DNA of 64,000 nt from a virus. The notes under the pieces are model-generated. The model was not told the origin of the DNA. It saw only the letters and a program-made list of their open reading frames with translations, and searched no databases. Every line of letters starts with the position of its first letter. Position 1 is the first letter of the stretch. The stretch covers positions 1 to 64,000 of the IMG/VR virus record IMGVR_UViG_3300008116_000014. The stretch is one strand, 5' to 3'. The translations under genes and the position numbers were made by a program. Of this stretch, positions 6,210 through 32,220 are shown in pieces.

Positions 6210-6545
6210 ATGAAATATAAGCCAGGTTGGAAGACTTCAGAATTTTATTTCACACTAGTAAGTTTTTTATTTAGTGGCGCTTATTTACTAGGATTATTAG
6301 AGAGCGTCTCTCAAAAAGATGATCTTATAAGCGAAACTAATAAAGGTTTAGAAGCACTCATACTCATTATGGGACAATTAGCAGTACTATTTAGATATAT
6401 TAAGGGGCGCACAGAAATTAAAAAAGCCTGGTGGACTACTGCTAGTCCAGAAGAACGAAAAATAGTTAATGAGCGTAATATAAAAGGAGCTAAAAATGTC
6501 AAACCAAGAACTAATAAAAAACGAAGTAGAAAAACTAATAGTTAA
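6210..6545 (+). CDS. Small membrane protein, holin-like, 111 aa
   Basis: It opens with KPGWKTSEF, a pattern seen at the start of many small phage membrane proteins annotated as holin-like, followed by two hydrophobic helices (about residues 12-29 and 48-62) separated by a short charged loop. A strongly basic tail follows, ending in KKRSRKTNS. Two helices plus a positive tail are compatible with a class II holin. It overlaps the next gene by 50 nt and starts a run of short membrane-protein genes. Lysis function is inference; no endolysin of known type lies beside it, although a papain-like protease does (8291-9214). Confidence 0.55.
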   Translation: MKYKPGWKTSEFYFTLVSFLFSGAYLLGLLESVSQKDDLISETNKGLEALILIMGQLAVLFRYIKGRTEIKKAWWTTASPEERKIVNERNIKGAKNVKPRTNKKRSRKTNS

Positions 6546-6882
6546 TACTAAAGATAGTATTGGTTATGTTAAAAAATTTGCATTAAATGAAGCATGGAAA
6601 CTATTACAATTAAATACAGCAACGATTGTACAAATCATAGAAGCTATTGGTAATGATCTTAGTAGTCCCAAAAAAAAGGACTTAGCAATGGAGTTGCTTA
6701 ATAGGTTCTATGATAAAATTTTTATTGTAGTTGACATTCCCTTTGTACCGAGCATAATTGAACCTATTATACATAGGTACATCAAAAGTATTCTCATGAT
6801 CATGGTGAGTGCCACAATTGATGCTACTGTTACCATTTTTAGAAATACGGGCGTTTTCATTAAAAAAGAGGCAGGTTTATGA
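6496..6882 (+). CDS. Hypothetical helical protein, 128 aa, possibly membrane-associated
   Basis: The protein is predicted to be nearly all helical. The C-terminal half has two moderately hydrophobic stretches (KIFIVVDIPFVPSIIEPII and SILMIMVSATIDATVTIF), which could form membrane hairpins or amphipathic helices. It overlaps the holin-like gene by 50 nt in another frame and shares ATGA with the next gene, so the four genes 6210-7744 form one translational unit. Family not recognised. Confidence 0.55.
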   Translation: MSNQELIKNEVEKLIVNTKDSIGYVKKFALNEAWKLLQLNTATIVQIIEAIGNDLSSPKKKDLAMELLNRFYDKIFIVVDIPFVPSIIEPIIHRYIKSILMIMVSATIDATVTIFRNTGVFIKKEAGL

Positions 6883-7256
6883 ATTACACAGAAAGTTTCG
6901 GTGAATTTGCTAGCAAAGTAACTCCAACGGATCTTGCGTTATATGCTGGTGCTGGTTTGGTACTATGGGTATTGTTTAAAGAAAAACTTAGTCCCGTACA
7001 AGAATTTTTAGGTGGACTGGTAGAAAAAGTAAAAGGTGTACTATCATCTAATAAAACACCAACAGTACCAGTATTTCAACCAAGCGTTCCTGTTCTAGAA
7101 ACAACAGATAAAGAAGATGTCTTTTTTAAGTTGGTTGTGAGTTGGAAACAAACACGAGATTTGGCTGTTGCTAGTGGATGCGATGAGGCTGTCAAAGTGG
7201 CCGATCAAATGTTTCCATATTTAAGTCCGGTAGTTTGTGGAAAGGAAAAAGTATGA
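6879..7256 (+). CDS. Small single-pass membrane protein, 125 aa
   Basis: One transmembrane helix near the N-terminus (LALYAGAGLVLWVLF, residues 19-33) is followed by a positively charged, Pro/Val-rich linker and a soluble C-terminal domain with two cysteines (SGCDEAV and SPVVCGK). The topology suggests a membrane-anchored domain of about 50 residues. ATGA overlaps on both sides. No family recognised. The shared layout with the following gene (anchor plus small soluble domain) suggests the two act together in the envelope. Confidence 0.55.
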   Translation: MNYTESFGEFASKVTPTDLALYAGAGLVLWVLFKEKLSPVQEFLGGLVEKVKGVLSSNKTPTVPVFQPSVPVLETTDKEDVFFKLVVSWKQTRDLAVASGCDEAVKVADQMFPYLSPVVCGKEKV

Positions 7257-7744
7257 ACTCGAAAACATTACTATTGTTAATTGCGGCGTGTCTAATCGCA
7301 GTAGGATTATTTAAACCTAGTTTACCCACGCTAGATAATACTGATTATGCTGTCGGTTCTGTAAATGTTGTTAAGCCATCTAATAAAGAACTATTGGATG
7401 AGTGTGAATCTGTTACCAAAGCTCTAAAAAGTGGACCATCTAGTAGAAAGGTTGATGGTAAAAGATTAGCCTCTTTATATTTGGATCTTGCTACTCTAGT
7501 TAGTTTGGATGGTGAAGATTGTATTATTAAAAATACAGAAGAAATTCGTCAAGCTAACAGATTGGCCGGAATTATGCTTAAATTGGATATGAAAGGCAAG
7601 TATGAGAATCTCGCAGAAGCCGGAACTAATCTCATTAAAGCCGCTATAGGTGACGATAGTGTATTATTAGATGATAGCCTAAGAGAAAAAGCGGTTGAAG
7701 GTTTTAATGCTCTCGCTTGGGCATGCTATATGGGATCTCAATAA
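7253..7744 (+). CDS. Exported or membrane-anchored hypothetical protein, 163 aa
   Basis: Start ATG 7253 overlaps the previous stop (ATGA). The N-terminus MNSKTLLLLIAACLIAVGLF is a signal peptide or anchor with no lipobox at a convincing position. The mature part (from about residue 25) is helical and acidic/basic mixed, with two cysteines (DECESV and EDCIIK) that could form a disulfide. It is the last of four coupled membrane genes, followed by an HNH gene. Unknown function; a periplasmic or envelope location is inferred. Confidence 0.55.
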   Translation: MNSKTLLLLIAACLIAVGLFKPSLPTLDNTDYAVGSVNVVKPSNKELLDECESVTKALKSGPSSRKVDGKRLASLYLDLATLVSLDGEDCIIKNTEEIRQANRLAGIMLKLDMKGKYENLAEAGTNLIKAAIGDDSVLLDDSLREKAVEGFNALAWACYMGSQ

Positions 7745-7748
7745 TAAA

Positions 7749-8288
7749 ATGAAAAACTGTAATAAGTGCAAGTTATCTCAAGAAGATACTAATTTTTATA
7801 AGGATAAGACCAGACATGATGGGTTGGAATACATATGTAAATCTTGTGCTCAGAAAAAAAAACAAAAATATAAATCTCATAATTATGAAATTTTACAAAA
7901 AAAAGCACTAAATTACTCCAGAAGACCAGATATTAAAATAAAAAGCAGGCTAAGAAAAAAAGAAAGACTTAAAACAGATATAAGTTATAGAATGTCAGAA
8001 AATATTAGACGCAGAATTAATTTAGCTCTACACGGAAAAAATAAATCTAAATCTACATTAGATATGCTTGGTTGTTCAATAGATTTTCTTAAACAATATA
8101 TATCTAATAAATTTGATAAAAATATGAGTTGGGATAATTATGGATTATATGGTTGGCACATAGATCATATCATACCATTATCATCAGCAAAAAATAAAGA
8201 AGAATTAGAAAAATTATGTCACTATTCAAATCTGCAACCACTGTGGGCAAAAGACAATTTACAAAAAAGCAATAAAATAAAGGCATAA
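7749..8288 (+). CDS. HNH homing-type endonuclease, 179 aa
   Basis: An N-terminal zinc ribbon (Cys4, Cys7, Cys30, Cys33) is followed by a basic helical linker and a full HNH core: HIDHIIPLS (His137, Asp139-His140), then HYSNLQPLW (His158, Asn161) and DNLQKSNK (Asn170). This is the common free-standing phage HNH family. I prefer ATG 7749 over an upstream in-frame start because it follows the previous stop by 4 nt. It sits between the membrane genes and the papain-like protease and is probably a selfish insertion. It shares its N-terminal ribbon with the remnant at 6010-6162. Confidence 0.85.
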   Translation: MKNCNKCKLSQEDTNFYKDKTRHDGLEYICKSCAQKKKQKYKSHNYEILQKKALNYSRRPDIKIKSRLRKKERLKTDISYRMSENIRRRINLALHGKNKSKSTLDMLGCSIDFLKQYISNKFDKNMSWDNYGLYGWHIDHIIPLSSAKNKEELEKLCHYSNLQPLWAKDNLQKSNKIKA

Positions 8289-8290
8289 TT

Positions 8291-9214
8291 ATGGCTAGAT
8301 TAACATCTCAACAATTATATGAAAAATATAAAAATGGATTTAGTGGTTGTATATATGAACCCCATGTTTATGATTTATTTATGGAAAATGCTAAATATGC
8401 TTATTTTAGCGATGGTGCTAAAAAAATAAAAAATAGTGGTAAGGGATTATTAAGCAGGCCATACTTATCATATTTAAAATTTGATCAAGAAGCATTCACT
8501 GAAAGACAAACTTTAGGAGATTGTACTAGTCATAGTACAAGGAACGCGTGTGATATAAGCAGAGCCGTAGAAATCGATATTAAAAAAGAAAAAGAAGGAT
8601 GGGTTGCAAGAGGGGCAACAGAAGCTATCTATGGTCAAAGAGGTCACGGAGGAGAAGGTTCTAGTTGTGCTAGAACAGTAGAATTTGTTACTAAAATTGG
8701 TGGTATTATAGCAAGAAAAAATTATCCTGGAATTGCAGATTTTAGTAAATATAATGGGAGCATGGGGGGTAAGTGGGGATCGAGAGGGTTGCCAGATAAG
8801 GTTTTAGATTTGGCTAATGATTATCAGATGAAAACCGCTAGTCAGATTAGAACCATAGAAGAAGCACGAGATGCTCTTGCTAATGGTTATGGTATAACAG
8901 TATGTAGTGATCAAGGATTTAGTAGTGTTAGAGATAAAAAAGGATTTGCAAAACCACAAGGCTCATGGGCGCATGCGATGTGTTGGGCTGCTTGTGATGA
9001 TACTGGTAACGATATGAGTTTTTTAATATGTAATAGTTGGGGTAAGTGGAATGATGGTGGGCATCCAGAATGGGGTCAATTACCAAATGGTTCATTTTTA
9101 ATTCATAGTGATATCGCAGAAAGAATGATTAAACAAAATGGAGCATTCGCAATTAGTAACTTCGACGGTTTCCCACTGCAAAAATTACCAGATTACGGAT
9201 TCGATTACTTATAA
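8291..9214 (+). CDS. Papain-like (C1 family) cysteine protease, 307 aa
   Basis: The papain catalytic set is in order: Gln73 and Cys78 in RQTLGDCTSHS, His228 in GSWAHAMCW, and Asn248 in CNSWGKWN. Between them are the Cys-rich GGEGSSCARTVEF and a Gly-rich segment, as in other C1A-like bacterial proteins. There is no signal peptide, although the N-terminal 60 residues could be a short pro-region. Its neighbours are small membrane and exported proteins, so it may act on host envelope protein during lysis or entry, or in virion maturation. Papain-type enzymes with CHAP-like roles are known in phage lysins, but this is closer to true papain than to CHAP. The family call is strong and the role is inferred. 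Confidence 0.8.
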   Translation: MARLTSQQLYEKYKNGFSGCIYEPHVYDLFMENAKYAYFSDGAKKIKNSGKGLLSRPYLSYLKFDQEAFTERQTLGDCTSHSTRNACDISRAVEIDIKKEKEGWVARGATEAIYGQRGHGGEGSSCARTVEFVTKIGGIIARKNYPGIADFSKYNGSMGGKWGSRGLPDKVLDLANDYQMKTASQIRTIEEARDALANGYGITVCSDQGFSSVRDKKGFAKPQGSWAHAMCWAACDDTGNDMSFLICNSWGKWNDGGHPEWGQLPNGSFLIHSDIAERMIKQNGAFAISNFDGFPLQKLPDYGFDYL

Positions 9215-9223
9215 GGAGATTTT

Positions 9224-9385
9224 ATGAAACTATTAGACAGAATAGCTCTTCAAAGATTAATCTCTATGCTATTAACTTTTATACTAGCTGTACTAAAGAT
9301 GTTTGCTCCAAAAACTATTGAAGATGATTCTTCTGTAGAAGATGATAAAAGGTGGCGCCCAAGATGGAGACGTAAGAAAAAATGA
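9224..9385 (+). CDS. Small single-helix membrane protein with basic tail, 53 aa
   Basis: A short ORF starting at ATG 9224 with a good AAGGAG site 6 nt upstream and ending at TGA 9383-9385 in ATGA overlap with the next gene. It has one hydrophobic helix (residues about 13-27, LISMLLTFILAVL), an acidic stretch, and a very basic Trp/Arg/Lys tail ending RWRRKKK. The pattern suggests a small inner-membrane peptide, possibly a spanin-like, holin-like or antiholin component. No family is recognised, but the ribosome-binding site and coupling support a real gene. Confidence 0.65.
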   Translation: MKLLDRIALQRLISMLLTFILAVLKMFAPKTIEDDSSVEDDKRWRPRWRRKKK

Positions 9386-9750
9386 AAACACTATCTTTTG
9401 TACTATTAGCCTCGGTATTAATTTTTGGTAGTCAATATACCGGCTCCACACTATCCTCTGTTGTTTTGAGTGGCGGTATAATCAAAGCACAAAATAGTCC
9501 AGTAGATCACAAATATGCTAGAAAAAATTGTCCTATTTGTAAAGGTACTGGTAAGTATCTTAGTGGCGACGGTATAAAAATGGTGGATTGTGGATACTGT
9601 GAACCACCAAAAACTCAAAATATTACCCACCCACAGTCGGTTATAAAACAGATTCCACAATGTAATGATACCCAGTGTGATATTCCTAAAGCTTATCAAA
9701 CTTCTCCTCCTAGAAAAATATATTACCCACAGAGAGTTTATAAGAGATGA
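9382..9750 (+). CDS. Exported protein with DnaJ-like CxxCxGxG zinc motif, 122 aa
   Basis: A signal peptide covers about residues 1-36 (FVLLASVLIFGSQYT, with likely cleavage after IIKAQ or IKA). The mature part has one CPICKGTGKYL element and a second DCGYCEPP pair, giving four Cys in the arrangement of half a DnaJ cysteine-rich domain. A Cys pair further on (CNDTQCDI) and a Tyr/Pro/Arg-rich end follow. Such zinc elements are common in phage exported proteins of unknown job. It overlaps both neighbours by 4 nt. Function unknown. Confidence 0.6.
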   Translation: MKTLSFVLLASVLIFGSQYTGSTLSSVVLSGGIIKAQNSPVDHKYARKNCPICKGTGKYLSGDGIKMVDCGYCEPPKTQNITHPQSVIKQIPQCNDTQCDIPKAYQTSPPRKIYYPQRVYKR

Positions 9751-10139
9751 ATAATATTGAATTAAAAAATATAGCCACAAAAATACTTCATAAAACTAAT
9801 ATTTCGGAAGATCAAAAGTTTGGTAGTGTTATTGCCATATTAATGATTATTAGTATAGTATTAACTCTTGTAAGAATATTACAAGAATGTAATAAAAATA
9901 AATTAAGCTCAGATTGTTCAGCAGAACAGAAGTACGGTCTTTATGGTGAAAATATTAAGTCGTATAGTAGTCGTCGGGGATGGTTTACTAAAATGAGAAT
10001 CAAAAAAGTTCTTCGTCGTGAACTAAGTCCAGAAGACTACCAAAAATATAGTTTCCAGCTATTAAATGCTATATTAGATAGTGGAGAAAATGTAACTCAA
10101 GAAGAAGTAATAACCCTAGTGGAGAATGCCCATGTTTGA
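9747..10139 (+). CDS. Single-pass membrane protein with basic cytoplasmic domain, 130 aa
   Basis: One transmembrane helix (residues about 27-43, GSVIAILMIISIVLTLV) lies between a charged N-terminal segment and a C-terminal domain. That domain has a basic patch (SSRRGWFTKMRIKKVLRREL) and an acidic helical end. It starts with ATGA coupling and overlaps the next gene start. The family is unknown. It continues the run of envelope genes that precedes the DUF1501/DUF1552 pair. Confidence 0.5.
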   Translation: MNNIELKNIATKILHKTNISEDQKFGSVIAILMIISIVLTLVRILQECNKNKLSSDCSAEQKYGLYGENIKSYSSRRGWFTKMRIKKVLRRELSPEDYQKYSFQLLNAILDSGENVTQEEVITLVENAHV

Positions 10140-10380
10140 TATTATAGTATGGTGTGTATATGGTTTATTTGTGGGTTCCATAGCCAAGAGCATAGTACCT
10201 GGTGAAGAAAATTTTGGCTTTGTGAAAACTGTTGCTTTAGGCGTAATTGGTTCGTATACTGGTGGAGCCATACTATACCTATTAGGGTCATATAGTTCAG
10301 TATCTCCTGCTGGTATTTTTATGGGTATTGCTGGATCAATAGTATCACTAATAGTATATAATAAATTAGTGTTAAAATGA
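10132..10380 (+). CDS. GlsB/YeaQ/YmgE-like small membrane protein, 82 aa
   Basis: Three hydrophobic helices carry Gly-rich motifs: GLFVGSIAKSIVPGEENFGF, GVIGSYTGGAILYLLG and GIAGSIVSLIVY. This fits the 'transglycosylase-associated' GlsB/YeaQ/YmgE family (GxIAkxixPG...GiiGaxxGgxl). I prefer ATG 10132 because the GGAG at 10121-10124 is 7 nt upstream of it and only 1 nt from the earlier ATG 10126. Family members are stress-related membrane proteins of uncertain function. A phage copy may modulate the host envelope. It overlaps the DUF1501 gene by ATGA. Confidence 0.65.
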   Translation: MFDIIVWCVYGLFVGSIAKSIVPGEENFGFVKTVALGVIGSYTGGAILYLLGSYSSVSPAGIFMGIAGSIVSLIVYNKLVLK

Positions 10381-11762
10381 GATGCTGCGGGCCTATTGAT
10401 AGAAGATCTTTTCTAGAAATTGGTTCTTTAGGATTTGCTGGATTGACATTATCGGATATGATCCAACTACAAGCAGTAGAACCCAAACCTAGAAAGTCTT
10501 TGATTTTTATATGGTTACCCGGTGGTGTTTCTCAGTTAGAAACGTATGATCTTAAACCGCAAGCGCCAGACGAATATAGAGGTCTATTAAAACCAATTAA
10601 TACTAATATTAATGGTATACAAATAAGTGAACTATTTCCAAAGCAATCCAAGATTGCAGACAAGTTTACTATTATTCGCTCAATGAGTCATTCTTTTACC
10701 GATCATGGTGGCGGCTCTAAAAGAGTTATGATGGCTAGAAGACCAGCAACACCAACAGGAACTATTAATGACCACCCGTCAACCTGTTCAATGATAAATA
10801 GATTTACAGAAAAAAATAATACATCATCTATACCTAATAGTATTATTTTAGGAGATAGTGGAGCAACCAAACCCGATAGCATAGCTTTGGGCGCAGCATA
10901 TCTAGGACCACAGTATACCCCATTTGAAGTTGATGGGGATCCATCAAAACATAATTTTAAAGTTAATTCATTATCCCTAAGCATGGGTTTAACTTCTGAA
11001 AGACTAGATAATAGAATGAATTTACTCAAATCTATAGATAAAGTTGATCGCTCAATAGATTTAACAAAATCGATGTCTACTATGGATAAGTTTCATGATC
11101 AGGCACAAAATTTATTATTTAGTTCCTCTGTGAAAGCTGCGTTTGATGTTTCTCTAGAAAAAGAAAATATAAGATTAAAGTATGGTCAACACGCCTGGGG
11201 ACAAAGAGCTTTAATGGCAAGACGATTAATCGAAGCTGGATGCGGTAGTGTTATTGTTACTATGAGTAATCCTAGTGTATCTATTAAACCGCCGACAGAT
11301 AATACTTATTATAACTGGGATTGTCATGCTGTTAATACTCATTTATTTGATGATATGAAATTTAGAGCGCCATTATATGACGAAGCCATAGCTGCTCTAA
11401 TAGAAGATGTTTATGATAGAGGATTAGATAAGGATGTTATGATTGTAGTAATGGGTGAATTTGGACACACTCCAAAATTAGAATATAAATCTGGTAAAGG
11501 TGGAAAAATTTGGCCGGGCAGAGATCATTGGTCAAAAGCATATTCAATTCTTGTTTCTGGTGGTGGCTTTAAAATGGGTCAGGTTATTGGCAAGTCTGAT
11601 GACAAGGGAGCTTTTGTTGAAGATAGAATGATATTACCAGAAGATTTATGGACTACAATATTTTATCATATGAATATTAATCCAAAAAGTATTATCCATG
11701 ATTTTACTGGTCGACCAATACCACTTTTACCAGAAGGTAATCTTATAAAGGAATTAATATAA
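10377..11762 (+). CDS. DUF1501 family protein with twin-arginine signal, 461 aa
   Basis: The N-terminus (CCGPIDRRSFLEIGSLGFAG) is a Tat-type signal of the kind that opens planctomycete DUF1501 proteins. Family landmarks follow: FIWLPGGVSQLETYDLKP, then SHSFTDHGGGSKRVM, an LARRLIEAG-like helix (LMARRLIEAGCGSV), WDCHAVN, and the C-terminal VVMGEFGHTPK...GRDHWSKAYSILVSGGG...GQVIGKSD. DUF1501 belongs to the alkaline phosphatase/sulfatase-like superfamily; the His/Asp/Glu motifs would bind metals. The length is usual for the family. It is coupled by ATGA to the small membrane gene upstream and lies 2 nt before the DUF1552 leader. A phage-borne, Tat-exported hydrolase-like protein is unusual. Substrate unknown. 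Confidence 0.85.
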   Translation: MRCCGPIDRRSFLEIGSLGFAGLTLSDMIQLQAVEPKPRKSLIFIWLPGGVSQLETYDLKPQAPDEYRGLLKPINTNINGIQISELFPKQSKIADKFTIIRSMSHSFTDHGGGSKRVMMARRPATPTGTINDHPSTCSMINRFTEKNNTSSIPNSIILGDSGATKPDSIALGAAYLGPQYTPFEVDGDPSKHNFKVNSLSLSMGLTSERLDNRMNLLKSIDKVDRSIDLTKSMSTMDKFHDQAQNLLFSSSVKAAFDVSLEKENIRLKYGQHAWGQRALMARRLIEAGCGSVIVTMSNPSVSIKPPTDNTYYNWDCHAVNTHLFDDMKFRAPLYDEAIAALIEDVYDRGLDKDVMIVVMGEFGHTPKLEYKSGKGGKIWPGRDHWSKAYSILVSGGGFKMGQVIGKSDDKGAFVEDRMILPEDLWTTIFYHMNINPKSIIHDFTGRPIPLLPEGNLIKELI

Positions 11763-11764
11763 TC

Positions 11765-11920
11765 ATGAGTATTATTCTACCAACAATAACAAATAGAAGA
11801 AATTATATAAAAGGATTAACTCTTGGTGCAGGAGCTATTATTCTACAGCCTTTTTTAGATTCCTTAGCATCTCAAGCTAATGGAGAAAAATCTCCCCCCT
11901 CGTATAATATTTTTTATTGA
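11765..11920 (+). other. Out-of-frame Tat-like leader of the DUF1552 gene
   Basis: ATG 11765, 3 nt after the DUF1501 stop, opens a 51-codon frame whose first part is a twin-arginine-type leader: NRRNYIKGLTLGAGAIIL followed by QPFLDSLASQA. It then reads GEKSPP at a CCCCCC run (11893-11898) and meets TGA at 11918-11920. The DUF1552 body continues in the +1 frame from exactly this point (PPRIIFF). Skipping one base at CCC-CCC-T joins leader and body into one 456-residue protein of normal family architecture. This can be a programmed +1 shift, a slipping (phase-variable) tract, a real mutation or a sequencing indel. Confidence 0.75.
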
Positions 11921-13115
11921 ATCCAATGGACTATATCCCCGTCATATACAGCCAAAAGAAATAAAAACTACTAGTGAATCTAATATAATTGATAAATCTT
12001 TGAATGAATTAGAATTACCAGATGCTATAGCGCCACTTAATCCATTAAAGGAAAAAATGTGTATAATACAAAAACTATCACATAAAGTCTCTGGTGGCGG
12101 AGACCATGGAAAAGGATATGGCGGATTAGGATGTTTTCATTGGAGAAAAGATGTTGCTGGTCAAACTATAGATCATGCACTAGCTGAATCTGTTAAAAGT
12201 ATAATCCCAGTATTAGGTTTAGCTATACCTCCACAATCATCTGCAATTTTTGTTCAAAGTGTATCAGCTATTGGATATAAAAAACCGCTATCAATGATTT
12301 GTCAACCAAATGTTGCTTTTCAAACATTATTTGGTAGTGTAGCAGAGGGCGATGCGGGTAAAATATATAATGCTAGAAATAAACTACTAGACTATATTAA
12401 AACAGATATAAATAGAGTACGCAATAGTTTACCATCAATGGATAAGATTAAATTAGATAATTATTTACAATCATTTGATGAGATTTTATATAGACAAAAT
12501 GAAACTATTAAAATTCAGGATAAGATTAGACGAAACCAACCAATAACAGATAAATTTCATAGTGAATTAAATATCGATAGATTTGAATCTCAGTGTGATA
12601 TTTTAGTGTCAGCTCTTATTAGTGGACTAACAAATATAGTTACTTTAGATGCTGCTGGTGGAATTCAACAATATCATACATGGAAATCTTTAGGTATTGA
12701 TATTGATGGTCATGCTATTGGTCATATGAATGGACCAGATAATTTATCTGTACCAATTCGTAAATATCATGCTGAAAGAGTATTAGATATTGCTAATAGA
12801 CTCGATTCTATTAAAGAGGGCGATGGTACAATGCTTGATAATAGTCTTATAGTTTGGATGAGCGACTCTGGTGAGGGTCATCATGGTTTTTGTGCCGAAT
12901 GGCCTATTGTATTGATAGGTAATTTAGGCGGCAGACTAAAAACCGATGGTAGATTTTTACAATATCCAGCTTATGGTAGTACCGGCAACAGAACCATTCG
13001 CAATCTCTATCTATCGCTGCTACATGCTGTTGGAGATAACAGAGAAAAATTTGGAGAGCTTGATTTAGAAATGGCAGCAGCCGAACAGTCTGGTCCATTA
13101 ACAGAAATACTATAA
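11880..13115 (+). CDS. DUF1552 family protein body (leader in another frame)
   Basis: Starting from RIIFFIESNGLYP the protein follows the DUF1552 pattern: a beta strand and PNG-like element, LNPLKEKMCIIQKLSH, then GGGDHGKGYGG, SLPSMDKIKLDNYL, and a late block SLIVWMSDSGEGHHGFCAEWP. DUF1552 is related to DUF1501 within the alkaline-phosphatase-like fold and is normally exported by Tat. ATG 11880 is the first start in this frame but would give a protein with no signal peptide. The Tat leader sits just upstream in the other frame (11765-11920). Together with the DUF1501 gene it forms a two-gene unit. Function is unknown; export to the host envelope or attachment to the virion is possible. Confidence 0.75.
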   Translation: MEKNLPPRIIFFIESNGLYPRHIQPKEIKTTSESNIIDKSLNELELPDAIAPLNPLKEKMCIIQKLSHKVSGGGDHGKGYGGLGCFHWRKDVAGQTIDHALAESVKSIIPVLGLAIPPQSSAIFVQSVSAIGYKKPLSMICQPNVAFQTLFGSVAEGDAGKIYNARNKLLDYIKTDINRVRNSLPSMDKIKLDNYLQSFDEILYRQNETIKIQDKIRRNQPITDKFHSELNIDRFESQCDILVSALISGLTNIVTLDAAGGIQQYHTWKSLGIDIDGHAIGHMNGPDNLSVPIRKYHAERVLDIANRLDSIKEGDGTMLDNSLIVWMSDSGEGHHGFCAEWPIVLIGNLGGRLKTDGRFLQYPAYGSTGNRTIRNLYLSLLHAVGDNREKFGELDLEMAAAEQSGPLTEIL

Positions 13116-13122
13116 TTGTGTC

Positions 13123-13150
13123 TTGACTCTGTGAACTGTTGGCATATAAT
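13123..13150 (+). promoter_or_regulatory. Sigma70-type promoter, apparently giving a leaderless dCMP deaminase mRNA
   Basis: TTGACT (13123-13128) and a perfect TATAAT (13145-13150) are separated by 16 bp. Transcription would start near 13157, the A of the dCMP deaminase ATG, so there is no room for a ribosome-binding site. It is one of the cleanest sigma70-like promoters seen in the window and separates the DUF1501/1552 unit from the nucleotide-metabolism block. Confidence 0.6.
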
Positions 13151-13156
13151 AGTTGT

Positions 13157-13627
13157 ATGAACAGACCATCGTGGACAGATTATTTTTTAGGTTTAGCAAA
13201 AGTTGTTTCTCAACGTAGTCATGATGAGCAAACTCAGCATGGTTGTGTGATCACAGATTCTCATAATCGTATTCTAGGAGTAGGATACAATGGATTTCCA
13301 AGAGGATTAGATGATTCAAAACTACCCAAAACTAGACCAGAAAAATATCCTTGGATGATTCATGCCGAAAGAAATGCTCTTTCTAATTGTATAGTTAGGC
13401 CGGATAATGGCATAGCATATGTAACTGGTCAAAGCTGCAACGACTGTATAATGGCTTTATGGCAAGAAGGAGTTTCTACGGTTGTTATGACAAAAGATCA
13501 TGGAACCCATCTATTCGATCAAAAAGCAAAAGACAGATTTGATACTTTTGTCTCAATGAGCGGAATCAAAATTTTATATATCGATCCAGACCTTTCGTGG
13601 CTGAAACAATTGTGTGGTGTATTATAA
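13157..13627 (+). CDS. dCMP deaminase (ComEB-type), 156 aa
   Basis: A zinc-dependent cytidine-deaminase-fold enzyme with the catalytic HAERNAL motif (about residue 74) and the paired GQSCNDCIMAL cysteines. GVGYNGFPRGLDD, before the HAE motif, is the family's substrate-binding stretch. It converts dCMP to dUMP to feed dTTP synthesis. No thymidylate synthase is in this window. I chose ATG 13157 over an upstream in-frame TTG because the promoter TATAAT at 13145-13150 would otherwise lie inside the gene. It is joined to a small membrane ORF by TAATG and precedes the ribonucleotide reductase. Confidence 0.88.
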   Translation: MNRPSWTDYFLGLAKVVSQRSHDEQTQHGCVITDSHNRILGVGYNGFPRGLDDSKLPKTRPEKYPWMIHAERNALSNCIVRPDNGIAYVTGQSCNDCIMALWQEGVSTVVMTKDHGTHLFDQKAKDRFDTFVSMSGIKILYIDPDLSWLKQLCGVL

Positions 13628-13767
13628 TGTACAAGATAGCATTTTATATTAGCATAGGAATCTATTTTTATCAACGATGGTTCACACAAAATCCCGAAAT
13701 GATAAACTATTCTTTTCATGGCCTAGTCTTATTTGGCCTTCTTACTTTAATAGATACAGATAAATAG
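13627..13767 (+). CDS. Small membrane protein, 46 aa
   Basis: ATG 13627 overlaps the deaminase stop (TAATG) and the frame ends at TAG 13765-13767. The peptide has two short hydrophobic segments (KIAFYISIGIYFY and GLVLFGLLTLI) around a polar turn. The following AGGAG drives the reductase gene. Tight coupling supports translation, but with no recognised family its function is open. Confidence 0.5.
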   Translation: MYKIAFYISIGIYFYQRWFTQNPEMINYSFHGLVLFGLLTLIDTDK

Positions 13768-13775
13768 GAGATAAT

Positions 13776-15968
13776 ATGTCCGCTCTTCAAGAACTGCAAA
13801 ATTATACTTTCGTTAGCAAATATGCTCGTTGGCTAGAAGATAAAAATCGCAGGGAAACTTGGAAAGAAGCGGTCGAAAGAGTTAAAAACATGATGCATAC
13901 AAAGTATGCTGATTTTGGTATAACAGACCAAATCAATTGGGCATACGATATGATGTATAAAAAGAAAGTATTAGGATCTCAAAGAGCATTACAGTTTGGT
14001 GGAGATCCAATACTAAAAAGAAATAGTAAAATTTTTAATTGTACAGCAAGTTATTGTGATCGTTTAAGATTTTTCCAAGAATGTTTTTGGCTATTGTTGT
14101 GTGGTAGTGGCACAGGATTTAGTGTACAAAAGCACCATGTATCAAAACTACCTTCGCTAGAACACAATCCAGAACCAGAAACAGCCACAAAATATGTTAT
14201 CGATGACAGTATCGAAGGATGGGCTGATGCTCTAGGTGTCTTATTAAGCAGCTATTCTAGCAAGCCTGTAGAAGAATTTAAGCAATATAAGAATACTCAT
14301 GTGGTTTTTGATTATTCAAATATTAGAGCAAAAGGATCGTCGCTGGCTAGTGGGGTTGGTAAAGCCCCCGGTTATGAACCACTAGCAAACGGCCTAGAAA
14401 AAATAAGAGCACTACTAGATCGTTGTATTAGAAATGGTCAGAAAAAATTAAGACCAATTGATGCTTATGATATTGTTATGCACAGTAGTGATGCTGTATT
14501 AAGTGGCGGTGTTAGAAGATCTGCTAGTTTAGCATTATTTAGTCCAGAAGATGAAGAGATGGCTAAGGCAAAAACGGGTAACTGGTTTATAGAGAATCCT
14601 CAAAGAGCCCGAAGTAATAATTCTGCATTATTATTAAAAGAACAAACAACATTTGAAGAGTTCCAAATTTTAATGGAAAGCGTTAAAGAGTTTGGTGAGC
14701 CAGGATTTATTTGGGCAGAATCAACAGAAATGGTATTCAATCCGTGTGTCGAGGTTAACCTATATCCTGTTGATATTGATAGTGGCGCTAGTGGATGGCA
14801 AGGATGTAATTTGAGCACTATCAACTGTTCTTCATTAGAAGATGAAAATGATTTTTATGAAAGATGCAAAGCCGCTGCTATAATAGGTACTTTACAAGCC
14901 GGGTTTACAAATTTAGATTATCTTGGTAAAATATCAGAAAAGATTTTTTGTAAAGAATCATTATTGGGAGTATCAATGACAGGTATTATGGAGAAACATG
15001 ATTTGATATTGTCAGAAAAGGTACTCAAAACTGGTGCTAAAGTTGCAGTAGAAACTAATAAAGAAATAGCTAAAAAAATTGGCATAAACCAAGCAGCACG
15101 GGTGACTTGCTTGAAGCCAGAAGGAACCGCAAGTTCTATGCTAGGTACTTCATCCGGTATCCACCCACACCATGCTAAACGATATATACGCCATGTACAG
15201 GCCAATATTTTAGAGGCGCCCTACCAGCACTTTAAGAAAATAAATCCGCAGTCATGCGAAAAATCATCGTGGTCTGCCAATAATACCGATGAGGTTATAA
15301 AATTTCCCATAGAGGTTCCAGATGGGGCTAAACTTAAAAATCAATTACCAGCTATAGAGATGTTATCTGTAGTTAAGGATACTCAAAAGCATTGGGTGCA
15401 AAGTGGTAAAAATACTCATTTATGTACTCAAAAATATTTATGTCACAATGTTAGTAATACTGTAACAGTAAAACCAGATGAATGGGATGATGTTACAAAG
15501 TATATTTATGACAATAGAAAGTATTTTGCTGGTATTAGTCTAATTCCTCAAAGCGGAGATAAAGACTATCCACAAGCCCCATTTACTACTGTTTATACTA
15601 GTAGAGAAATAGTTAAAGAGTACGGAGATGCTGCGCTATGGTGTTCTGGATTAATAGAGCTTGCACTAAACGCATTCAATAATAATCTTTGGGCCGCTTG
15701 TGATTATGTAGTATTAAATCAAGCTAATAAAGACCATCATGAATCTAAATTAATGTTTGTAACCAAAATGAAAAACTTTGCTGGTAAATACTTTAATGGA
15801 GACACCAGAAGATTAACATACTGTATGAAGGATGTTTATAACTGGAAGATTTATTGTGATTTGTTTAATAGTTTCAAGAAGGTTGATTATACACAACTAT
15901 TGGAAACTGAAGATAATACTGTCGGGATCGAGGAAATTAGTTGTGCCGGTGGCGCTTGTCTAATTTAA
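13776..15968 (+). CDS. nrdJ: Adenosylcobalamin-dependent (class II) ribonucleotide reductase, 730 aa
   Basis: It reduces ribonucleotides to deoxyribonucleotides using vitamin B12. The length (about 730 aa) and the motifs fit the monomeric RTPR-type enzyme: FNCTASYC with the first active-site Cys, a Gly-rich CGSGTGFSVQ loop, GGVRRSASLALF, NPCVEVNL holding the catalytic Cys/Glu pair, CLKPEGTASSMLGTSSGIHP (split here only for description), and a C-terminal redox pair in SCAGGACLI. There is no NrdB-like small subunit nearby, as expected for class II. The enzyme is independent of oxygen, so it works in both oxic and anoxic hosts but needs cobalamin. RBS AGGAG is 7 nt before ATG. Confidence 0.9.
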   Translation: MSALQELQNYTFVSKYARWLEDKNRRETWKEAVERVKNMMHTKYADFGITDQINWAYDMMYKKKVLGSQRALQFGGDPILKRNSKIFNCTASYCDRLRFFQECFWLLLCGSGTGFSVQKHHVSKLPSLEHNPEPETATKYVIDDSIEGWADALGVLLSSYSSKPVEEFKQYKNTHVVFDYSNIRAKGSSLASGVGKAPGYEPLANGLEKIRALLDRCIRNGQKKLRPIDAYDIVMHSSDAVLSGGVRRSASLALFSPEDEEMAKAKTGNWFIENPQRARSNNSALLLKEQTTFEEFQILMESVKEFGEPGFIWAESTEMVFNPCVEVNLYPVDIDSGASGWQGCNLSTINCSSLEDENDFYERCKAAAIIGTLQAGFTNLDYLGKISEKIFCKESLLGVSMTGIMEKHDLILSEKVLKTGAKVAVETNKEIAKKIGINQAARVTCLKPEGTASSMLGTSSGIHPHHAKRYIRHVQANILEAPYQHFKKINPQSCEKSSWSANNTDEVIKFPIEVPDGAKLKNQLPAIEMLSVVKDTQKHWVQSGKNTHLCTQKYLCHNVSNTVTVKPDEWDDVTKYIYDNRKYFAGISLIPQSGDKDYPQAPFTTVYTSREIVKEYGDAALWCSGLIELALNAFNNNLWAACDYVVLNQANKDHHESKLMFVTKMKNFAGKYFNGDTRRLTYCMKDVYNWKIYCDLFNSFKKVDYTQLLETEDNTVGIEEISCAGGACLI

Positions 15969-15991
15969 CTCTATCCGCGAAAGGTTAACCA

Positions 15992-16729
15992 TTGAGAAAA
16001 AAAACTAAAAACTCACAGAAAAAATCCGCAGTTATTGATTTAACTAATGAAATTAGTAGTCCGGCAGAAACCAAATATCGCAATAGATTAAAACCACGCA
16101 CAGATAATCAAAAAGAATATATCCGCACAGTGGCGGAAAATCACATCACCTTTTGTCAAGGTGTTGCTGGTAGTGGTAAAACACATATTGCCATAGGTAT
16201 GGCTTTAGAATATCTGTTAGAGAACAAGGTTAAAAAAATTGTTATAACAAGACCAGTAGTAGAAAGTGGAGAAAAGATAGGTTATCTTCCAGGCACAGCA
16301 GAAGAAAAGCTACATCCTTATCTACTACCTCTTCTAGACGAGGTAAATCACTTTATCTCTCCCGCCCAATATAATAGTTTAAAAAGTAATAACAGAATAG
16401 AGATAGTGCCATTAGGCTTAATGAGAGGACGCAATTTTCATGATTCATTTATTGTGGCCGACGAATGCCAGAACGCATCGTATGATCAATTAAAAATGCT
16501 CTTGACAAGGCTTGGTAACAACAGTAAAATGGTACTAACTGGAGATATTAGTCAATCAGATTTACGAAGACATTTACAGGGCGGTTTTTACGTTTTAACT
16601 CAACTTTTAAATAACATTGACGGTATCGGCATATCATATCTTGATATGAAAGATATTGTGCGTCATCCAATCATAGGTACTATTTTAACCAAACTTGACT
16701 CTTACGAAAATGGAAACCAAACACTCTAG
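15992..16729 (+). CDS. phoH: PhoH-like ATPase, 245 aa
   Basis: A P-loop ATPase of the PhoH family, with Walker A GVAGSGKT (residues 57-64), the family strand ITRPVVESGEKIGYLPG, and Walker B-type VADECQNA (Asp157, Glu158), then MVLTGDISQSDL. PhoH proteins are common in phages, probably as RNA helicase or RNA-processing factors. The start is TTG 15992, preceded by AAAGG at good distance; the next ATG is past the P-loop, so TTG is required. A Lys-rich N-terminus of about 35 residues precedes the core. The end overlaps the HNH gene by 20 nt. Confidence 0.88.
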   Translation: MRKKTKNSQKKSAVIDLTNEISSPAETKYRNRLKPRTDNQKEYIRTVAENHITFCQGVAGSGKTHIAIGMALEYLLENKVKKIVITRPVVESGEKIGYLPGTAEEKLHPYLLPLLDEVNHFISPAQYNSLKSNNRIEIVPLGLMRGRNFHDSFIVADECQNASYDQLKMLLTRLGNNSKMVLTGDISQSDLRRHLQGGFYVLTQLLNNIDGIGISYLDMKDIVRHPIIGTILTKLDSYENGNQTL

Positions 16730-26688: not shown

Positions 26689-28074
26689 ATGTTTTCACTT
26701 TTGGATGGACTATCCAAACCAGAGCAAATAGCAGAAAGATGCAAAGAGATCGGAGCATCTGCTTGTGCGTTAACAGATCATGGTAACATAGCAGGAACCA
26801 TCAAGTTTTATACTGCTATGAAAAAAGCTGGACTAAAGCCTATACTTGGATGTGAACTTTACATTTGTAGTCAAAACCCAAAAATCAAAGAAAAAGATAA
26901 CAAAAAACTAAGTCATTTTCTGGTATTGGCTAAGAATTATTCAGGATGGAGAAATCTTATCAAGATAGTTTCATCATCCAATAATCCAGAATATTATTAT
27001 CATAAGCCGAGATTGGATTTACCAACACTAAAAGATCTTCATTCAGGGGATTTGATCGGAATAACTGGTCATCTTGGATCAACACTAGCAGATCAAATAC
27101 TAGACGGGGATGCTCTTAGAGATGATTGGCAAAATATAGGAGTACAACATATATCTTATCTTAAGACTATATTTGGTGATCATTTGTTTTTGGAAGCTCA
27201 ATTAATAGATAAAGATAATCTGCCAATCCAAGAAATCCTCACAAACTGCATCAGAAAATTGGGACAATTAACCAATACTAAAGTTATATGTACTCCTGAT
27301 GCTCATTATTGTCGCAAAGAGGATGCTGTTGATCAGCGAGTATTATTGTGCAACAATCTTAAGATTACATTCTCTGATATTAGTCGTAAAATCATAAACG
27401 ATCAAGATATTCCTATGGGGTGCTTTTTTACATCAGATAATTATCATATTCCATCTCAGGAGGAAATGAAGAACATACACACAGAAGAAGAAATCAATAA
27501 TACAAATTTTGTGTGTGATTTAGTGGAAGAATATAACATACTAAGTAAACCTAAATTACCATTATTTAAATGTCCACCAAATTTCTCTCAGGATGAATAT
27601 TTAAGAGAACTGTGTAGAAACGGATGGAGAGATAAAATAGCAAATGTTGTACCTAAAGAAGATCAACAACCATACTTGGATCGTATCAAATACGAACTAG
27701 AGGTTTTACAGGGTGCTGGGCTGAGTAGTTATTTTTTAATAGTACAAGATATTGTGAACTATGTTAAAAGAGAAGGATGGCTTCCGGGACCGGGACGAGG
27801 TTGTTTTATACCAGAAACAAGAGTTAAAATGGCTTCTGGTGAATTGATGCCTATCTATAATATAGAAATAGGAGATCAAGTAATAGATGCTTTTGGAAAT
27901 AAACAAAGAGTCTATGATATAATGAGATATGAAATAGATGAAGAAATACTGGAAATAGAATTAGAAAATGGTAAAATCATAAGATGTACAAAAGATCATA
28001 GATTTTTAACACTAAATAGGGGTTGGGTTGAAGCCCAGTATCTATCAGAAAATGATGATTTGGCCAAAATATAA
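26689..28074 (+). CDS. dnaE: DNA polymerase III alpha, N-terminal part fused to split-intein N-half, 461 aa
   Basis: Residues 1-371 are the PHP and early polymerase domain of DnaE: FSLLDGLSKPEQIAERC, ALTDHGNIAG, KPILGCELYI, YHKPRLDLPTL, then YELEVLQGAGLSSYFLIVQD and WLPGPGRG. At the conserved GPGRG/SAAG site the frame changes to an intein (Cys372 onward, 27802-28071) and ends with tandem TAATAA. ATG 26689 is the first start in frame, 8 nt after the stop of the N-terminal fragment, so reinitiation is likely; the product would lack the HVHS motif. By itself it lacks the palm aspartates, which lie in 28916-29749. Confidence 0.9.
   Translation: MFSLLDGLSKPEQIAERCKEIGASACALTDHGNIAGTIKFYTAMKKAGLKPILGCELYICSQNPKIKEKDNKKLSHFLVLAKNYSGWRNLIKIVSSSNNPEYYYHKPRLDLPTLKDLHSGDLIGITGHLGSTLADQILDGDALRDDWQNIGVQHISYLKTIFGDHLFLEAQLIDKDNLPIQEILTNCIRKLGQLTNTKVICTPDAHYCRKEDAVDQRVLLCNNLKITFSDISRKIINDQDIPMGCFFTSDNYHIPSQEEMKNIHTEEEINNTNFVCDLVEEYNILSKPKLPLFKCPPNFSQDEYLRELCRNGWRDKIANVVPKEDQQPYLDRIKYELEVLQGAGLSSYFLIVQDIVNYVKREGWLPGPGRGCFIPETRVKMASGELMPIYNIEIGDQVIDAFGNKQRVYDIMRYEIDEEILEIELENGKIIRCTKDHRFLTLNRGWVEAQYLSENDDLAKI
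27802..28071 (+). other. Split intein N-half (IntN), 90 aa
   Basis: It starts with the nucleophile Cys1 in CFIPETRVKMASGELMPI, block A of Hint domains. Next comes EIGDQVIDAFG, then block B in IIRCTKDHRFLTLNRGWVEA with the TxxH pair (Thr63, His66). It ends at LSENDDLAKI. The length of 90 residues is normal for natural split IntN. The matching C-half is at 28916-29020. Confidence 0.92.
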
Positions 28075-29934: not shown

Positions 29935-30616
29935 TAAGATTTGTGTTTTTGATTTTGAGACAGACGGATCGGATCCATCAGAATGCAGTCCTGTACAGAT
30001 TGCTGCTATTATGATAGATCCATTAAATTTGGACATTATACCCGGCTCAGAGTTCAATATAAACTTTAGGCCAGAAGTTTTGGAAAACAACGAAAACTAC
30101 AAATACGAAACAGATATATTAGATTTTCATTCAAAGGTTAAAGGGTGTTCTCAAGACGAGGTTTTAGCCTCGTGGTATAAATATCCTAAACAGGATCATT
30201 CTTGGAAATTATTCACAGCCTATTTGGATAAATACCATTCACGAGCAACTAAAAAAAGTCAATTTTCTGCACCTATTGCTGCTGGTTATAATATACATAG
30301 ATTTGATCTACATATCATAGACAGATTAAGCAAAAAGTATGGTAATTTGAACAAAGAAAAAAGAACAGATTTATTTTATCCTAGAGACACTATAGATGCT
30401 ATGCAATTAATGTTTTATTGGTTTGAGCATAGTAGTGATCTTAAAAGTTATTCGTTAGATACTGTGAGAGATTATCTGGGAATTAGCAAAGATGGTGCTC
30501 ACGATGCTCTAAAAGATGTTCAGGATACAGCAGCAATAATAATTAGGTTTTTAAAGTTACATCGTAATTTGGGACAAAAGGTAAAGTTTAAGAATTCTTT
30601 TGCAAATCAGGCATGA
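29921..30616 (+). CDS. DEDDh 3'-5' proofreading exonuclease (DnaQ-like), 231 aa
   Basis: The exonuclease motifs are all present: CVFDFETDG (first Asp/Glu), GYNIHRFDL (second Asp) and KDGAHDALKDVQDT with the His-x4-Asp of the DEDDh class. The size and architecture match the editing subunit of a DnaE-type replicase. It lies between the middle and C-terminal pieces of the polymerase and overlaps the C-terminal piece by 4 nt, so it will be made with them in stoichiometric coupling. A separate insertion region of about 60 residues (RPEVLENNENYKYETDIL and onwards) is longer than in bacterial DnaQ. Confidence 0.88.
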   Translation: MINYNKICVFDFETDGSDPSECSPVQIAAIMIDPLNLDIIPGSEFNINFRPEVLENNENYKYETDILDFHSKVKGCSQDEVLASWYKYPKQDHSWKLFTAYLDKYHSRATKKSQFSAPIAAGYNIHRFDLHIIDRLSKKYGNLNKEKRTDLFYPRDTIDAMQLMFYWFEHSSDLKSYSLDTVRDYLGISKDGAHDALKDVQDTAAIIIRFLKLHRNLGQKVKFKNSFANQA

Positions 30617-32220
30617 CTAAAAAATATCAATATCCTTGTGGATGTTCTTTTGAGTTAAATGATAACAATGGATTAGTTTTTGATCCAGATATTAACTCTA
30701 TAAATTTGGACTGTTCCAGAACATGGGGTCTAATTTCGGATGGTAATACTAAGGGTTGTTTTCAATTAGAATCTCGTCTAGGACGATCCATAGCCAAAAA
30801 ACTTAAGCCAGAAAATATAGAGCAGCTTTCTGCACTAATTGCTGTGTTAAGACCCGGCTCATTAGAGGCTATTAGAGATGGTAAAAGTGTAACCAATCAT
30901 TATATCGATAAAAAGAATGGTCAAGAAACACTAGATAACTTTCATCCCGTTCTTGAGCCAATCCTAAATTCAACATACGGAGAGATGATATATCAAGAAC
31001 AAGCAATGGAAATTGCTAAGATAGTTGCTGGTTTTAATTTGCGAGAAGCAGATATGTTAAGAAAAGCTATTGGTAAGAAAAAACCAGAAGAAATGGCAAA
31101 GGTTAAGTCAAAGTTTTTAGAAGGATCATCAAAACTGAATATCTTAAGCACAAATGAGGCAGAACAGGTGTTTGGTTGGATTGAAAAAAGTCAAAGATAT
31201 TCTTTCAATAAGTCCCATTCTGTTAGTTATGCTATTAATGCGTACTTATCAGCATATGCCAAAGCACATTTTCCAAAAATATTTTTTGCATCATATCTCA
31301 GATTTGCCAAAGATAAAAAAGATCCTCAAGCAGAGATAAAAGAATTGGTACAAAATGCTAATGAAATGGATATTACTGTTCATACTCCTGATATTAGAAA
31401 TCTTAATGAGTTCTTTATATTGAAGAACGATAAGATATATTTTGGTTTAACAGATATTAAGGGTGTGGGCAAATCGGTATTTGATAAGCTTAGAGGAATA
31501 TCTTTGAATGTTAAATTTGATTCATCTAATTGGCTTCAGTTTTTATTCTTAGTTTTGAATAGAATTAATTCTACAGCAGCCAAAGCTTTGATCCAAAGCG
31601 GGGCGCTTAGTTTTATACCAATAACCAGAAGTAAGATGTTGTATGAATATAATCTTGTTAGCACTTTAACAGCCAAAGAGATTGAGCATATTTGTAATAA
31701 CTTGACCAAATTCACCACACTAAAGGAATGTTTGGGATTTGTGATGGGTTTACCTAGAGTTAATAAGAATAGACAAAATTCTATCAGAGATTCTTTGTAT
31801 GCTTTAGATTTTCCACCACATTCATTGGATGATAGTCCGGAGTGGATAGCAGACTGCGAAGATGCCTTACTTGGATGCTCTATTACTTGTTCCAAGCTGG
31901 ATATGTATGATATTAGTATGACCAATATAACATGTAGAGAATTAAAGAATACGTCTATGAAAGATAATCTTATTCTTGGCGGAGAAATAGATAATATCAA
32001 TATTGTAAAGACCAAAAGTGGTAAAAATCCCGGTCAAGAAATGGCTTTTGTTACAATGACAGATCAAACTGGTTGTGTTGACTCTATAGTATTTTTTCCT
32101 GAACAATACAAAACTTTCAAGAATTTACTATTTTTGGGCAATATTGTTATTGTGAAAGGATCTAAGTCCAAGAACGGAGATGGTATCATAGTAGAAAAGG
32201 GTTATATAGCAAAAACTTGA
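30613..32220 (+). CDS. dnaE: DNA polymerase III alpha, C-terminal part, 535 aa
   Basis: It starts with a Cys-rich segment (KYQYPCGCSFEL, then LDCSRTWGL) and then the DnaE finger region: GNTKGCFQLESRLGRSIA, ALIAVLRPGSLEA, YGEMIYQEQAMEIAKIVAG, ADMLRKAIGKKKPEEM, FNKSHSVSYAINAYLSAYAKAHFP. HhH-like FGLTDIKGVGKSV and an OB-fold, MAFVTMTDQTGCVDSIVFFPE, close the protein. It supplies fingers, tandem HhH and OB domains, but no palm acids. The break after KFDILGVALLDKV falls between palm and finger sections. There are no intein blocks at this break, so the pieces must associate non-covalently. Confidence 0.88.
   Translation: MTKKYQYPCGCSFELNDNNGLVFDPDINSINLDCSRTWGLISDGNTKGCFQLESRLGRSIAKKLKPENIEQLSALIAVLRPGSLEAIRDGKSVTNHYIDKKNGQETLDNFHPVLEPILNSTYGEMIYQEQAMEIAKIVAGFNLREADMLRKAIGKKKPEEMAKVKSKFLEGSSKLNILSTNEAEQVFGWIEKSQRYSFNKSHSVSYAINAYLSAYAKAHFPKIFFASYLRFAKDKKDPQAEIKELVQNANEMDITVHTPDIRNLNEFFILKNDKIYFGLTDIKGVGKSVFDKLRGISLNVKFDSSNWLQFLFLVLNRINSTAAKALIQSGALSFIPITRSKMLYEYNLVSTLTAKEIEHICNNLTKFTTLKECLGFVMGLPRVNKNRQNSIRDSLYALDFPPHSLDDSPEWIADCEDALLGCSITCSKLDMYDISMTNITCRELKNTSMKDNLILGGEIDNINIVKTKSGKNPGQEMAFVTMTDQTGCVDSIVFFPEQYKTFKNLLFLGNIVIVKGSKSKNGDGIIVEKGYIAKT

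Follow-up and report, generated by a model that had tools for sequence, protein, structure and literature searches.

What two exported proteins of bacterial families do in a phage genome is the question raised by the DNA analysed here, the first 64,000 bases (called the window) of the 90,658-base (90.7 kb) virus record IMGVR_UViG_3300008116_000014. A first-pass annotation had read in it an adjacent pair of DUF1501 and DUF1552 genes with Tat leaders. The source is a large freshwater virus of bacteria and a real tailed phage: portal, capsid-like and tail-region genes are located at about 66-80 kb of the record, with the portal gene (a phrog_2739 match) past the end of the window and, after it, a putative major capsid protein that was called from this place and from its conservation, without a PHROG match. 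Phage genes surround the pair, as the annotation had claimed; the upstream run is common to another phage, and dCMP deaminase, ribonucleotide reductase, PhoH, DnaB and primase genes lie downstream. Another contig, IMGVR_UViG_3300005525_000101, matches the region at 100% identity and spans both junctions, the two assemblies being not fully independent since they may share reads. The GC and GC3 of both genes match the rest of the phage, and the composition is even. Chimerism at 10.4 or 13.1 kb, a risk raised together with the first reading, is therefore ruled out. A search for tRNA genes as host hints found none. The capsid-like protein had no match in 392 planctomycete genomes; this empty host-link search is expected for a lytic phage, yet it gives no support either.

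Profile searches placed both proteins in the families first proposed for them (Table 1). The DUF1501 match is full-length, covering residues 39-461 of the protein and positions 1-390 of the model. Its Tat-type leader (DRRSFLEIGSLGFAGLTL) is in frame and, by reading, has the RR motif with a moderately hydrophobic stretch behind it; the NCBIfam TAT model gave no match to it. The H110, WDxH, GEFG and GRDH residues of the family are all present. Across 23 viral and 29 cellular DUF1501 sequences, R9, R10, H110, D315, H317, E361 and H384 are invariant and D383 is kept in all but one. In 23/23 aligned viral proteins, both the RR motif and the residues of the putative active site are kept. Only two viral rows, the window and contig L096, have His instead of R in GEFGRTP. 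The DUF1501 model (AF2 pLDDT 89.2, pTM 0.88) resembled sulfatases, LtaS/LtaP and phosphonate monoester hydrolases (Foldseek prob 1.00, E about 1e-6); because TM was about 0.4, this assignment is at the superfamily level only. Sequence searches of solved structures returned nothing significant. Judging from residue order, the invariant residues may be metal sites. No catalytic nucleophile was identifiable by sequence, with no conserved Ser/Thr/Cys at the expected position, where the invariant H110 would stand. The DUF1552 model was weak (pLDDT 71; Foldseek E 5e-3). Both proteins belong to a kind of exported, probably metal-dependent enzymes that is typical of planctomycete bacteria.

Table 1. 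Features around the DUF1501/DUF1552 pair (positions in the window)
Position	Strand	Feature	Evidence
6210, 6496, 6879, 7235	+	Four small proteins, three with hydrophobic stretches	Hydrophobicity and family scans; 6210..9214 collinear in L282, 56-79% identity
7695	+	Inserted HNH/endonuclease VII-like gene	Absent from the L282 collinear block
8291-9214	+	Protein resembling papain-type protease	By reading only, no Pfam match; collinear in L282
9382..9750	+	Small protein, signal-like N-terminus, CxxC repeats	51% identity in L282; weak phrog_12574 match
9747..10139	+	Small protein, one transmembrane stretch	65% identity in L282
10126..10380	+	84-aa membrane protein, Transgly_assoc family	PF04226 26.1 bits (cut-off 25.3); 85% identity in L282
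10377..11762	+	DUF1501 protein, 461 aa, RR at 9-10, alkaline-phosphatase/sulfatase-type fold	PF07394 252.5 bits (curated cut-off 27); AF2; Foldseek
11765..11920	+	Short ORF with Tat-like DUF1552 leader, out of frame with body	Leader in frame in L265, L266, L281, L282
11873..11900	+	Frame break between DUF1552 leader and body; A5 (11886-11890) and C6 (11894-11899) runs	Same letters in second assembly
11880..13115	+	DUF1552 (HXXSHH) body, 411 aa, open frame	PF07586 133.4 bits (curated cut-off 30); 60% identity to planctomycete protein
13139..16729	+	dCMP deaminase, B12-type ribonucleotide reductase, PhoH	Pfam and PHROGs

Tat leaders had been claimed for both proteins. This holds for DUF1501, but the DUF1552 leader lies in a different frame from its body. 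The leader (NRRNYIKGLTLGAGAIILQPFLDSLA / MSIILPTITNRRNYIKGLTLGAGAIILQPFLDSLASQA) begins at ATG 11765, directly after the DUF1501 stop and with AAGGA upstream, and ends at a stop at 11918-11920. The ATG of the body ORF (11880) falls inside the mature domain and has no Shine-Dalgarno-like site before it, and no internal start with a ribosome-binding site was found either. At the HxxSHH position the body has H278AIGH282M; the closest cellular subfamily likewise has HxxGHM. In cellular and phage relatives, leader and body share one frame. Two other phage or phage-like contigs, L281 and L282, carry DUF1552 with an intact leader (TIGR01409 17.3 bits in L281; Tat-like by reading in L282), that of L282 in the same gene island. 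The window DUF1552 may be broken; probably its export or the protein itself is lost, or it is made only by frameshifting. The break may come from real loss, assembly error or +1 frameshifting. For DUF1552 only, a recently inactivated gene remnant stands at even odds. The separate frames and the lack of an internal start with a ribosome-binding site favor it, as does the fact that this is the sole frame break in the 41 kb of the genome comparable with relatives, identical in the second assembly. However, the two assemblies may share reads, the 411 codons are otherwise open in spite of a full GC change, and the homopolymer runs at the break allow sequencing error or programmed +1 frameshifting.

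The coupling of the pair to a small membrane gene was confirmed: the stop of the PF04226 gene and the start of DUF1501 overlap in the letters ATGA. Phage contig L282 (149.5 kb), which has the same capsid-like protein as the window phage (735.7 bits), holds the window genes 6210-10380, except the HNH-like gene at 7695, in the same order and with 51-85% identity. It contains no DUF1501, and its DUF1552 gene lies at the other end of the island block. The DUF1552 proteins of L282 and the window are only 38% identical to each other, and that of the window is 60% identical to a cellular protein, which suggests that the two genes probably entered separately. The DUF1552 of L281 is 47% identical to that of the window and has 60% GC in a 39% GC locus; the gene would be either recently captured or misassembled, and L281 is a putative phage contig, confirmed by neither a terminase nor a capsid test.

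The origin of the pair was traced through its cellular relatives. Those nearest to the window DUF1501 (46-48% identity) come from MAGs of Gemmataceae, Planctomycetaceae and Chthoniobacteraceae, and those nearest to the DUF1552 (60% and 55-56%) from two freshwater planctomycete MAGs (Lake Fargette, Baikal). In one of these two, DUF1501 adjoins DUF1552 in the same order, with a DUF1501 of a different subfamily. The phylogeny that had been proposed as a check places the viral DUF1501 proteins repeatedly among planctomycete and verrucomicrobial sequences: in a 126-sequence tree (quick search, SH-aLRT support only) they fall into several clades, and the starred branches force at least 8 virus/cell label changes. 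An AU test (46 rows, LG+G4) rejected a single viral clade (p-AU 9e-46), which rules out one origin for all viral DUF1501. The relatives and the tree support the expectation that the genes would give a clue to the host, here a likely member of the Planctomycetota/Verrucomicrobiota. The annotation had also suggested that they might be host genes recently captured. Capture from hosts is supported, but not its recency, since GC3 is 15-20% in the phage genes but reaches 66-83% in their closest cellular counterparts, and both frames are otherwise open. Among viral DUF1501 pairs, the median dN/dS is 0.076 (range 0.025-0.175; 35 pairs with defined dS), single values being rough as dS is >1 in many pairs. 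The window DUF1501 and DUF1552 are true phage genes that descend from genes of the hosts (PVC bacteria). Phages have acquired DUF1501 on several occasions, and purifying selection keeps their Tat-type leader and active-site-like residues. Host-derived, selected and set in a confirmed phage genome, the genes resemble auxiliary metabolic genes in these respects; a metabolic function during infection would be a prediction.

The annotation knew of no phage role for either family. None was found in the literature covered, but the case is not unique: a profile-guided scan detected DUF1501 relatives in at least 260 IMG/VR viral contigs, of which L096-L100 are closest (55-56% identity). In named isolate phage records, tblastn found no relative of the DUF1501 or DUF1552 protein. 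Among 50 records tested, several of them near-copies of one another, DUF1501 was found in 50/50, with two to four copies in 33/50 and four copies in 7; 10/50 strongly matched the capsid-like protein of the window phage. A clear terminase match (>70 bits) was found in 10/37 tested DUF1501 records; weaker phrog_2 matches appear to be PhoH, as the one in the window's own record is. Within the capsid group only 2/46 records carry DUF1501, namely G030 (232 kb) and the other assembly of the window phage, so DUF1501 is an accessory gene there. Its neighbors in phages include DnaB, primase, RecA, DNA polymerase III alpha-like protein, PhoH, dCMP deaminase and DNA ligase (names partly by reading), with ThyX and UvdE in L291. 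For DUF1552, a first scan with a three-row alignment returned only the second assembly of the window phage, and a better alignment returned more; weak matches in DUF1501-bearing records were, by coordinates and where compared, DUF1501 genes. One viral record (G079) also encodes a DUF1559 pseudopilin, another planctomycete hallmark.

In cells, DUF1501 is often found beside PSCyt1-DUF1549-DUF1553 proteins, and one planctomycete genome gave 50 scored PF07587 matches. This partner family was detected in three viral records (G054, G055 and G086) and was absent from 37/40 virus records tested, the window's included. G055 (46 kb) encodes a 992-aa PSCyt1-PSCyt2-PSD1 protein with CxxCH motifs and phage-like GC3, directly after ThyX and near a DUF1501 gene. 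In G086 (21 kb), a similar PSCyt1-type protein lies between DUF1501 genes, and the cluster adjoins the same DNA ligase and glycosylase genes as are found with DUF1501 in G030/L096-type phages. Neither contig gave a capsid or terminase match; by gene content, both appear to be phage-like contigs that carry the cellular cytochrome partner of DUF1501.

Our preferred reading is that the pair encodes host-derived, Tat-exported hydrolases of the alkaline-phosphatase/sulfatase fold that would act in the envelope of a PVC host, most likely as auxiliary metabolic genes; we give it a probability of roughly 0.5, with substrate and role inferred. The DUF1501 protein would be made early or in mid-infection, fold around metal ions in the cytoplasm, be exported in folded form by the host Tat pathway, and hydrolyze a phosphate or sulfate ester in the periplasm or envelope of the host. 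Most likely it would be an enzyme of auxiliary metabolism that works together with the PSCyt/DUF1553 cytochrome partner of the host, a protein that a few phages encode themselves. DUF1552 would add another exported protein of broadly the same fold type. Repeated capture, seen in hundreds of viral sequences, points to a real use during infection and suggests that the products matter for it. Counted against this reading were the low TM-scores and the absence of an identifiable nucleophile, the rarity of the PSCyt partner in the virus records, the out-of-frame leader of the window DUF1552 and the empty host-link search. A broader proposal, that large phages of Planctomycetota/Verrucomicrobiota repeatedly take over the DUF1501/DUF1552/PSCyt system to rework the host periplasm or envelope in infection, is tentative and less likely than not.

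The main rival is that the exported hydrolases alter surface glycans or lipids, leading to superinfection exclusion or receptor change. Export itself is consistent with this, as are the patchy accessory distribution in the capsid group, the several different DUF1501 subfamilies per phage, and the place of the window pair at the end of a run of small membrane and exported proteins conserved in L282. However, in most other phages DUF1501 sits among replication and nucleotide genes, and a cytochrome partner in a few phages fits metabolism better; envelope modification is possible, with the odds against it. A rather unlikely variant, which narrows the auxiliary-metabolic reading, is phosphate or sulfate scavenging: an exported phage phosphatase would supply viral DNA synthesis with phosphorus, much as cyanophage PhoA/PstS do. 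The fold type and the nucleotide-metabolism neighborhood agree with it, and PhoH is a near neighbor of DUF1501 in the window and at five further non-redundant loci; but PhoH is common in phages and hence weak evidence, and the literature found reports phosphatase activity for no DUF1501 protein. A virion or adsorption component, decorating the particle or acting on the surface at entry, is improbable: in L135 the gene immediately upstream of a DUF1501 is tail-tube-like, and in L291 a fibre-like repeat protein is encoded near one, whereas Tat-type leaders in all aligned viral proteins imply export from the infected cell and, as a milder argument, the window genes are far from the capsid/tail block and beside replication and nucleotide genes. 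Contamination of IMG/VR by cellular fragments or chimeric contigs, suggested by the shortness of some DUF1501 contigs and the GC-rich DUF1552 of L281, can be dismissed almost entirely, as at least 11 DUF1501 contigs have terminase or capsid-like genes, the same gene neighbors recur in different phages, and for the window it is refuted by the identical second assembly and phage-like GC and GC3.

Comparative genomics has linked DUF1501 to those PVC bacteria that have intracellular membranes (Kamneva et al. 2012, cited through PMC4452313), and a role in carbohydrate use has been proposed for PSCyt genes (PMC5615132). In the literature found, of incomplete coverage, neither source gave a biochemical role for DUF1501/PSCyt (PMC4452313, PMC5615132), and phage DUF1501 appeared only as a weak match for a 61-aa protein (PMC5418858). 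Planctomycetes have DUF1501 and PSCyt genes in many copies, and little is understood about them; the phage genes offer small versions that can be tested away from the dozens of paralogues in the host. Carriage of DUF1501/DUF1552 also makes PVC bacteria the likely hosts of a large set of phages about which little has been described. If the broader proposal is true, phages take over a PVC-typical exported system that comparative genomics links to the unusual intracellular membranes of these bacteria.

Comparison with known systems places the phage genes between several precedents. One phage DUF1501 is already deposited in UniProt/BFVD (A0A6J5M742, 'DUF1501 domain-containing protein [uncultured Caudovirales phage]'); it is distant from that of the window (11% identity, TM about 0.35); no paper discussing it was found in the incompletely covered literature. 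The DUF1501-PSCyt modules of PVC cells (DUF1501; DUF1553/PSD1-DUF1549/PSCyt2-PSCyt1) comprise the same families, with Tat-type or signal-peptide proteins; tandem DUF1501 genes occur there as in phages, and the PSCyt partner is present in G055 and G086 as in cells. Unlike these modules, the phage DUF1501 genes are AT-rich, lie among replication genes and usually have no cytochrome partner. With the alkaline phosphatase/sulfatase superfamily (sulfatases, LtaS, phosphonate monoester hydrolases), DUF1501 shares conserved Asp, His and Glu residues whose order is plausible, but it would differ in having the invariant H110 where a Ser/Thr/Cys nucleophile is expected. Phages are known to carry auxiliary metabolic genes for nutrient acquisition, such as cyanophage PhoA and PstS. 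Like these, phage DUF1501 is host-derived, patchy in distribution, under purifying selection and near nucleotide genes; unlike them, it belongs to a host family without a known function, was captured several times, and is present in several copies per phage.

Neighbours of DUF1501 genes in other phage or phage-like contigs are listed in the table. In stretch L133, two tandem DUF1501 genes are flanked by a DUF1559 pseudopilin and a trypsin-like protein; in viral records G055 and G086, the neighbour resembles the cytochrome protein that partners DUF1501 in cells. A DUF1501 of cellular label, at 5947-7269 of L247 (a stretch of a Verrucomicrobiaceae MAG), groups within a viral clade, and its source is probably a phage contig binned into that MAG. 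Small viral contigs (L283-L288) contain a distant DUF1552-like stretch (21% identity) close to a dCMP deaminase-like gene.

Coordinates of the features discussed
Feature	Location	Remarks
DUF1559 pseudopilin (171.6 bits) and trypsin-like protein	L133 5233-6213 and 9269-9922	phage contig
PSCyt1-type cytochrome protein, CxxCH motif	L291 12844-15822 (G055)	adjoins DUF1501; contig phage-like
PSCyt1-type cytochrome protein, CxxCH motif	L292 3362-5749 (G086)	adjoins DUF1501; contig phage-like
Capsid-like protein	L004 9842-10870	
DNA polymerase, two ORFs	window 26689-28074 and 30613-32220	match consecutive portions of a single PHROG, phrog_405
Two glycosyltransferases	window 32719-34371 and 43473-44747	phage families phrog_2170 and phrog_24687

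The window's DNA polymerase is split, and three ORFs separate its two parts. At the far end of the full record (G000 84,800-90,658; about 5800-11659 in L005), GC content rises from 33% to 41-49%, convincing ORFs are scarce, and there are internal repeats of 70% (85491-85704 and 86731-86961); this is possibly a foreign or misjoined end. Going by coordinates, a second contig, 3300005527_000103, extends to this end as well. The phage's capsid-like protein has at least 599 matching stretches among viral contigs, the best 80 with 85-100% identity; it marks a large, little-described phage group.
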